In this document: in pieces, positions 28,615-30,674 of the stretch
How positions within the stretch are numbered: the stretch's first letter is position 1
How the letters are laid out: the number at the start of each line of letters is the position of its first letter
DNA from: an uncultured Woeseiaceae bacterium
Lineage (GTDB): Bacteria; Pseudomonadota; Gammaproteobacteria; Steroidobacterales; Woeseiaceae
Assembly: GCA_937944275.1 (NCBI GenBank)
Contig: CALDZH010000013.1
Location: forward strand, 1-36,279
Length of the DNA: 36,279 bases
Direction of reading: 5' to 3'
Notes under the pieces: generated by a model
The model's input: only the letters and a program-made list of their open reading frames with translations
Database searches by the model: none
What the model was told of the DNA's origin: nothing
Position numbers and translations under genes: made by a program

Positions 28615-30674
<2,060 letters not shown>

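Follow-up and report, generated by a model that had tools for sequence, protein, structure and literature searches.

REPs are defined, in the available text on RepRanger, as rarely overlapping coding regions (PMC12306157). Intragenic REPs tagged by GTAG or CGTC have been described in frame within conserved genes of several species; they are treated as insertions, and more than half of them occur as dimers or in groups, with 20-30 encoded residues, according to the accessible part of that survey (PMC3733652). On the enzymatic side, TnpA-REP cleaves and recombines single-stranded REP in vitro, and the spread of REPs is considered poorly understood; the accessible portion of the same source holds no description of a REP being copied into coding DNA (PMC8266576).

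Here, we describe a repeat arm that occupies coding sequence with no change of gene length. The window, i.e. the whole stretch of DNA that was analysed, comprises 36,279 nucleotides from an uncultured Woeseiaceae bacterium. G000 denotes the window's own genome assembly (193 contigs, 62.9% complete, 2.04 Mb), and the other G-numbers denote related genomes. Two hairpin repeat families, A and B, are found in the window, together with a single family A arm inside nuoG:

8257-8321, + strand: family B hairpin (GGTACCGGACACC...), upstream of dnaK
8386-10323, + strand: dnaK (Hsp70), ORF as listed, start codon provisional
10329-10390, + strand: family A hairpin between dnaK and dnaJ, arms 10331-10355 and 10364-10388
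10404-11543, + strand: dnaJ (ORF list, Pfam)
28615-30675, + strand: nuoG, 686 aa (Pfam); its Molybdopterin domain (residues 276-604) includes the patch
29901-29921, + strand: family A single arm in nuoG, covering the last base of G429, then K430-L436, in frame

The initial annotation had reported an exact 19-nt arm of the dnaK-dnaJ palindrome lying in frame inside nuoG, which holds up, and had judged a chance match very unlikely. The 19-mer AAGGGGTCGAACCGATTTT is present on the plus strand at both 10329-10347 and 29903-29921, and translation from 29902 gives K430 G V E P I L436. Its inverted partner stands at 10372-10390 with 2 mismatches, and shuffled sequence contains a mean of 0.01 matches at <=3 mismatches. 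The match is longer than first noted: nuoG 29901-29921 is identical over 21 nt (AAAAGGGGTCGAACCGATTTT) to the hairpin arm at G000:C191:3633. Markov models of orders 0-4 give, per genome and over both strands, expectations of 2-5e-4 for the 17-mer core, 1-3e-5 for the 19-mer and 0.4-1.7e-6 for the 21-mer. The nuoG arm has no inverted partner within 250 nt; the best candidate matches at 11/17 positions and overlaps the arm itself, a score that 30% of random 500-nt stretches equal. The nuoG copy is not palindromic (DNA fold z +0.84).

At <=2 mismatches, the family A core has 10 copies in the 2.04 Mb of G000. Eight are the arms of four hairpins (on C13, C80, C191 and C162), one is located at C2:6121 and one is the lone nuoG arm; all five exact 17-mer arms besides nuoG lie within hairpins. 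The dnaK-dnaJ hairpin folds as RNA at -47.1 kcal/mol (z -9.5). At G000:C2:6121-6188, the family A arm (2 mismatches) adjoins a family B hairpin, and this copy may be a broken element, perhaps a repeat inserted into a repeat. The exact 17-mer occurs in 4/73 genomes of the genus, 12/107 of the family and 14/396 of the order, and the reversed 17-mer, taken as a control pattern, in 0 of the same genomes. Across the loci examined, 128 family A arms were counted at <=1 mismatch, some of them twice at locus ends and those of G196 and G076 in part, and 33 of these are partnerless. The partnerless arms placed in conserved genes are those in nuoG and in a pirin gene, and for the others visual inspection of the ORFs suggested a position outside genes or upstream of them. 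On three contigs (G196:C57, G159:C56 and G076:C142), family A repeats follow one another at short intervals, and on the last of these they surround a RAYT gene.

The family B hairpin at 8257-8321 is long and folds strongly, and arms of this family are also present in mttB and trpC elsewhere in G000. The genome contains 37 family B arms at <=2 mismatches; of 35 examined, 31 are paired and 4 unpaired, the latter being two direct copies close to an end of contig C79, the mttB arm and the trpC arm. Both families are REP-type repeats without the GTAG/CGTC tag; inspection of the arm words of the two families shows neither tetranucleotide. Family A copies flank a RAYT (Y1 transposase) gene in G076 (L152), family B copies (two with 1 mismatch, one exact) flank one in G061 (L158), and repeats of the type seen in the TrpC linker of G006, described below, flank the RAYT gene of G006. 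The RAYT proteins exceed the Pfam cut-off for Y1_Tnp; with NF047646, the REP-associated tyrosine transposase model (cut-off 80 bits), L158 and L154 reach 81.1 and 80.2 bits, and L152 and L155 fall just under the cut-off with 77.4 and 75.9 bits. A search for RAYT found none in the 62.9% complete G000 assembly and was positive in 5/5 other genomes.

How did the arm come to be in nuoG? The initial annotation envisaged, as one possibility, a repeat remnant captured by insertion, and it named a gap-free alignment to distant NuoG proteins with different codons as one of the findings that would speak against this. Such an alignment is what we observe: residues 430-436 align without a gap to nine NuoG proteins of 74-84% identity that use other codons (counts that omit partial sequences as well as L059, L097, L099 and L101, which have the same linker length and an aligner gap there), and the counterparts of KGVEPIL include DGIEPVL, DAIKPVV and NQIDSIV. 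Insertion into nuoG is therefore ruled out. Derivation from the repeat family very probably stands, and insertion as the route does not; a length-preserving replacement is compatible with the alignment and is made likely by the mttB case presented below. The site was also correctly supposed to be weakly constrained, since the 7-codon window of the patch is the 10th lowest among 679 in identity to relatives. Among relatives of ~70% identity, the majority carry a linker that is roughly 25 residues longer just upstream of the patch, at about residue 428.

The lineage-specific changes in nuoG are concentrated in the patch. Its excess of lineage divergence over that among the nine relatives ranks 2/679 with 7-codon windows and 1/678 with 8-codon windows (the windows overlap, and fewer than these numbers are independent), and this is as a block change would leave it. 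In the nine relatives, 9-12 of the homologous 21 nt agree with the arm, where the mean over the gene is about 5, and KGVEPIL scores against these NuoG relatives above 99.9% of 5698 7-mers from the window's proteins. A fit this family-like counts against blind overwriting, unless similarity guided the change or selection filtered its products. The nearest relative is only 77% identical over 401 nt, and hence does not provide a before-and-after pair.

A second gene of the same genome presents the same picture with the other repeat family. The mttB-like gene (L233:1826-3451; G000:C164) carries an in-frame family B arm, AGGTACCGGACACCATATTT, at C164:2986, with its length unchanged. Twenty nucleotides are exact with hairpin arms (expected 1.7e-6 per genome), and mttB and trpC of G000 are identical over 26 nt (expected 8e-11), which excludes chance as the source of the mttB match. 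Among the loci examined, the whole 26-nt stretch was found in mttB and trpC only and in no hairpin, so that either trpC or an unseen repeat may have been the source for mttB. The mttB patch is gap-free against seven relatives, with KLGTGHHIF aligning to HVGGNHVIF, KVGAHNIIF and others. In excess divergence the site ranks 3/494 (8 codons) and 2/493 (9 codons), with 4.3 sd at the patch, and the top four of the 494 8-codon windows all overlap it. Compared with its three nearest relatives, the protein has amino acid identities of 0.82, 0.78 and 0.78 overall, which fall to 0.22, 0.44 and 0.33 in the patch. The patch peptide nonetheless fits the family, only 0.13% of 5520 peptides being as good.

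These results bear on the strongest competing explanation, coincidence, in which ordinary substitutions brought nuoG to the arm sequence, helped by the peptide that one frame of the arm encodes. Given that peptide, codon usage yields the 19-mer with a probability of 2e-4 and the 21-mer with 1.4e-5, and both the gap-free alignment and the family-like peptide are what such a course would produce; the nuoG match was, moreover, selected from a large scan, and once this is allowed for, chance could account for nuoG taken alone. Coincidence does not sit well with an expectation of about 1e-6 per genome for the 21 nt, with an arm that is unlike the nine relatives at 9-12/21 positions, or with a patch that ranks first or second among the nuoG windows in lineage specificity, and mttB of the same genome is, at 26 nt, beyond chance. 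We consider coincidence unlikely for nuoG, and less likely still given mttB.

Further genes were found to contain repeat sequence. In G006, meaB (L326 around 705; G006:C167:6604) has a family B arm near the C-terminus in the same reading frame, with the peptide YGTGHPIS; its alignment to a MeaB of solved structure has no gap at the arm, and 267 residues fall on 267 positions of NCBIfam NF006958, i.e. with no net length change. By these alignments, meaB is probably a further same-length case. A putative ggt (G000:C59:28456; L332 around 757) carries in frame, following a probable signal peptide, a 9-bp mini-hairpin of family B. The Pirin-family gene (G290:C114; L175:1465-2364) carries an exact reversed family A 17-mer at its C-terminal end, and this match may be due to chance, the expectation of such 17-mers being an estimated 0.1-0.3 over the 396 order genomes. 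A match in a putative gltB (G000:C143:10317, 3 mismatches) is probably due to chance, because the reversed control also yields 2 matches in G000 at that setting.

TrpC is different in that its length has changed. From SPAEG to the next conserved Tyr there are 16 residues in 19/23 relatives measured, 20 or 21 in three and 15 in one; the linker of G000 has 26 residues, and those of its two closest relatives in the comparison, G018 and G006, have 24. The repeat-bearing extensions in this clade amount to 8-10 residues, in frame. The three linkers (G000:C132, L234:1465-2295; G018, L267; G006, L268) contain three different REP-type repeats, all in frame, and each recurs elsewhere in its own genome. 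In G000 the linker contains a family B arm plus a degenerate partner, in G018 it contains 21 nt identical to a G018 hairpin plus a second degenerate copy, and in G006 two copies of GGGGACAGTGACC, 24 nt apart; the latter word also flanks the G006 RAYT gene as pairs 23 nt apart, and a further pair lies some 900 nt away from the linker. Many shuffled versions fold at least as well as the linker segments themselves (z -0.97, -0.40 and +1.41), hence no strong hairpin remains. The TrpC linker is an insertion-type case with lineage-specific turnover.

With these extensions, the in-frame insertion of repeats is a process that occurs in this clade, and nuoG might accordingly have received a whole repeat, followed by a deletion that restored the original length and left one arm behind. 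This route is improbable: it requires two steps with exact length restoration in nuoG, in mttB and probably in meaB, and a trace of the partner arm near nuoG is absent. An assembly artefact, in which the assembler or read correction placed repeat sequence in nuoG, is more doubtful still. All genomes are known as assemblies, G000 is fragmented and incomplete (193 contigs, 62.9%), and 21 nt is a common k-mer size; yet the flanks on both sides are nuoG, in frame and at native length, and related cases are present in other assemblies (meaB and trpC of G006, trpC of G018). A functional role of the single arm as a DNA site, either an uptake signal or a protein-binding site selected within genes, is hardly credible: known uptake sequences do occur as single copies within genes as well as in inverted pairs at terminators, but just 10 copies at <=2 mismatches in 2.04 Mb are too few for a DNA uptake sequence.

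The reading that we favour, with a probability of roughly 0.65, is that one arm of a REP/RAYT-type hairpin of family A replaced 21 nt of nuoG while the length of the gene was kept. The nuoG stretch is identical to a repeat, it aligns without a gap, the lineage-specific changes cluster in it, and other in-frame intragenic copies exist in G000 and its relatives. From these observations we infer a copying mechanism, a possible role of the RAYT enzyme and a single event. The source would be single-stranded repeat DNA, or a hairpin that served as template during repair or replication. The repeat DNA would anneal to a partly similar stretch of nuoG, present-day relatives matching the arm at 9-12/21 positions, the arm would be copied, and the strand would then return in register. 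Since a single arm would have been copied, no hairpin would be expected in nuoG; the product would have been retained by selection, as KGVEPIL resembles the residues that this site already accepted. By analogy, the single-strand chemistry of TnpA-REP, as far as the accessible text describes it, suggests both a role for RAYT and a source of single-stranded repeat DNA in cleavage and recombination (PMC8266576).

The nuoG and mttB patches have four features in common, namely an exact single arm, unchanged length, a peptide suited to the family and excess change. Templated overwriting, with partial similarity as guide and selection as filter, accounts for all four and is the best reading, as insertion with exact deletion, or chance with codon drift, explains fewer. 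A broader proposal, which we put forward tentatively and hold at somewhat less than even odds, is that insertion is not the only way in which REP/RAYT repeats spread, and that single arms also overwrite coding DNA in a similarity-guided, length-preserving manner; such overwriting would produce clustered in-frame changes in core enzymes (NuoG, MttB and MeaB) and would renew the repeat-bearing TrpC linker with each species' own repeat. The evidence covers one bacterial group, in fragmented assemblies. If the proposal is true, same-length single-arm patches are footprints of copying, by template switching or by annealing of single-stranded repeat DNA, which insertion models do not predict, and they constitute a one-step source of multi-residue protein change.

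Several known systems resemble the present one in part, as judged from the accessible portions of the sources. REPtrons, i.e. TnpA-REP of E. coli and others, likewise combine a Y1 HUH transposase gene with its repeats, from which the present repeats, known from sequence alone, differ in repeat sequence and tag (PMC8266576). Rickettsia palindromic elements are likewise palindromic repeats that unrelated metabolic genes have taken up in frame; those elements are about 150 bp long and add a peptide, whereas here an arm of 21-26 nt occupies the place of native codons (PMC3733652, PMC10969869). Closest are the intragenic REPs, small palindromic repeats with tyrosine transposases that lie in frame in conserved genes, and the different REPs at about the same site in recB of two Xanthomonas species resemble the TrpC linker (PMC3733652). 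Unlike the tagged intragenic REPs of that report, nuoG and mttB have one arm, no length change and no GTAG/CGTC tag (PMC3733652). In the accessible parts of the open-licence literature searched, intragenic REPs appear as insertions only, and no description of same-length single-arm replacement was found. REPs inside genes are already established; length-neutral single-arm replacement looks like a new variant, in which small repeats may overwrite coding sequence besides inserting into it.
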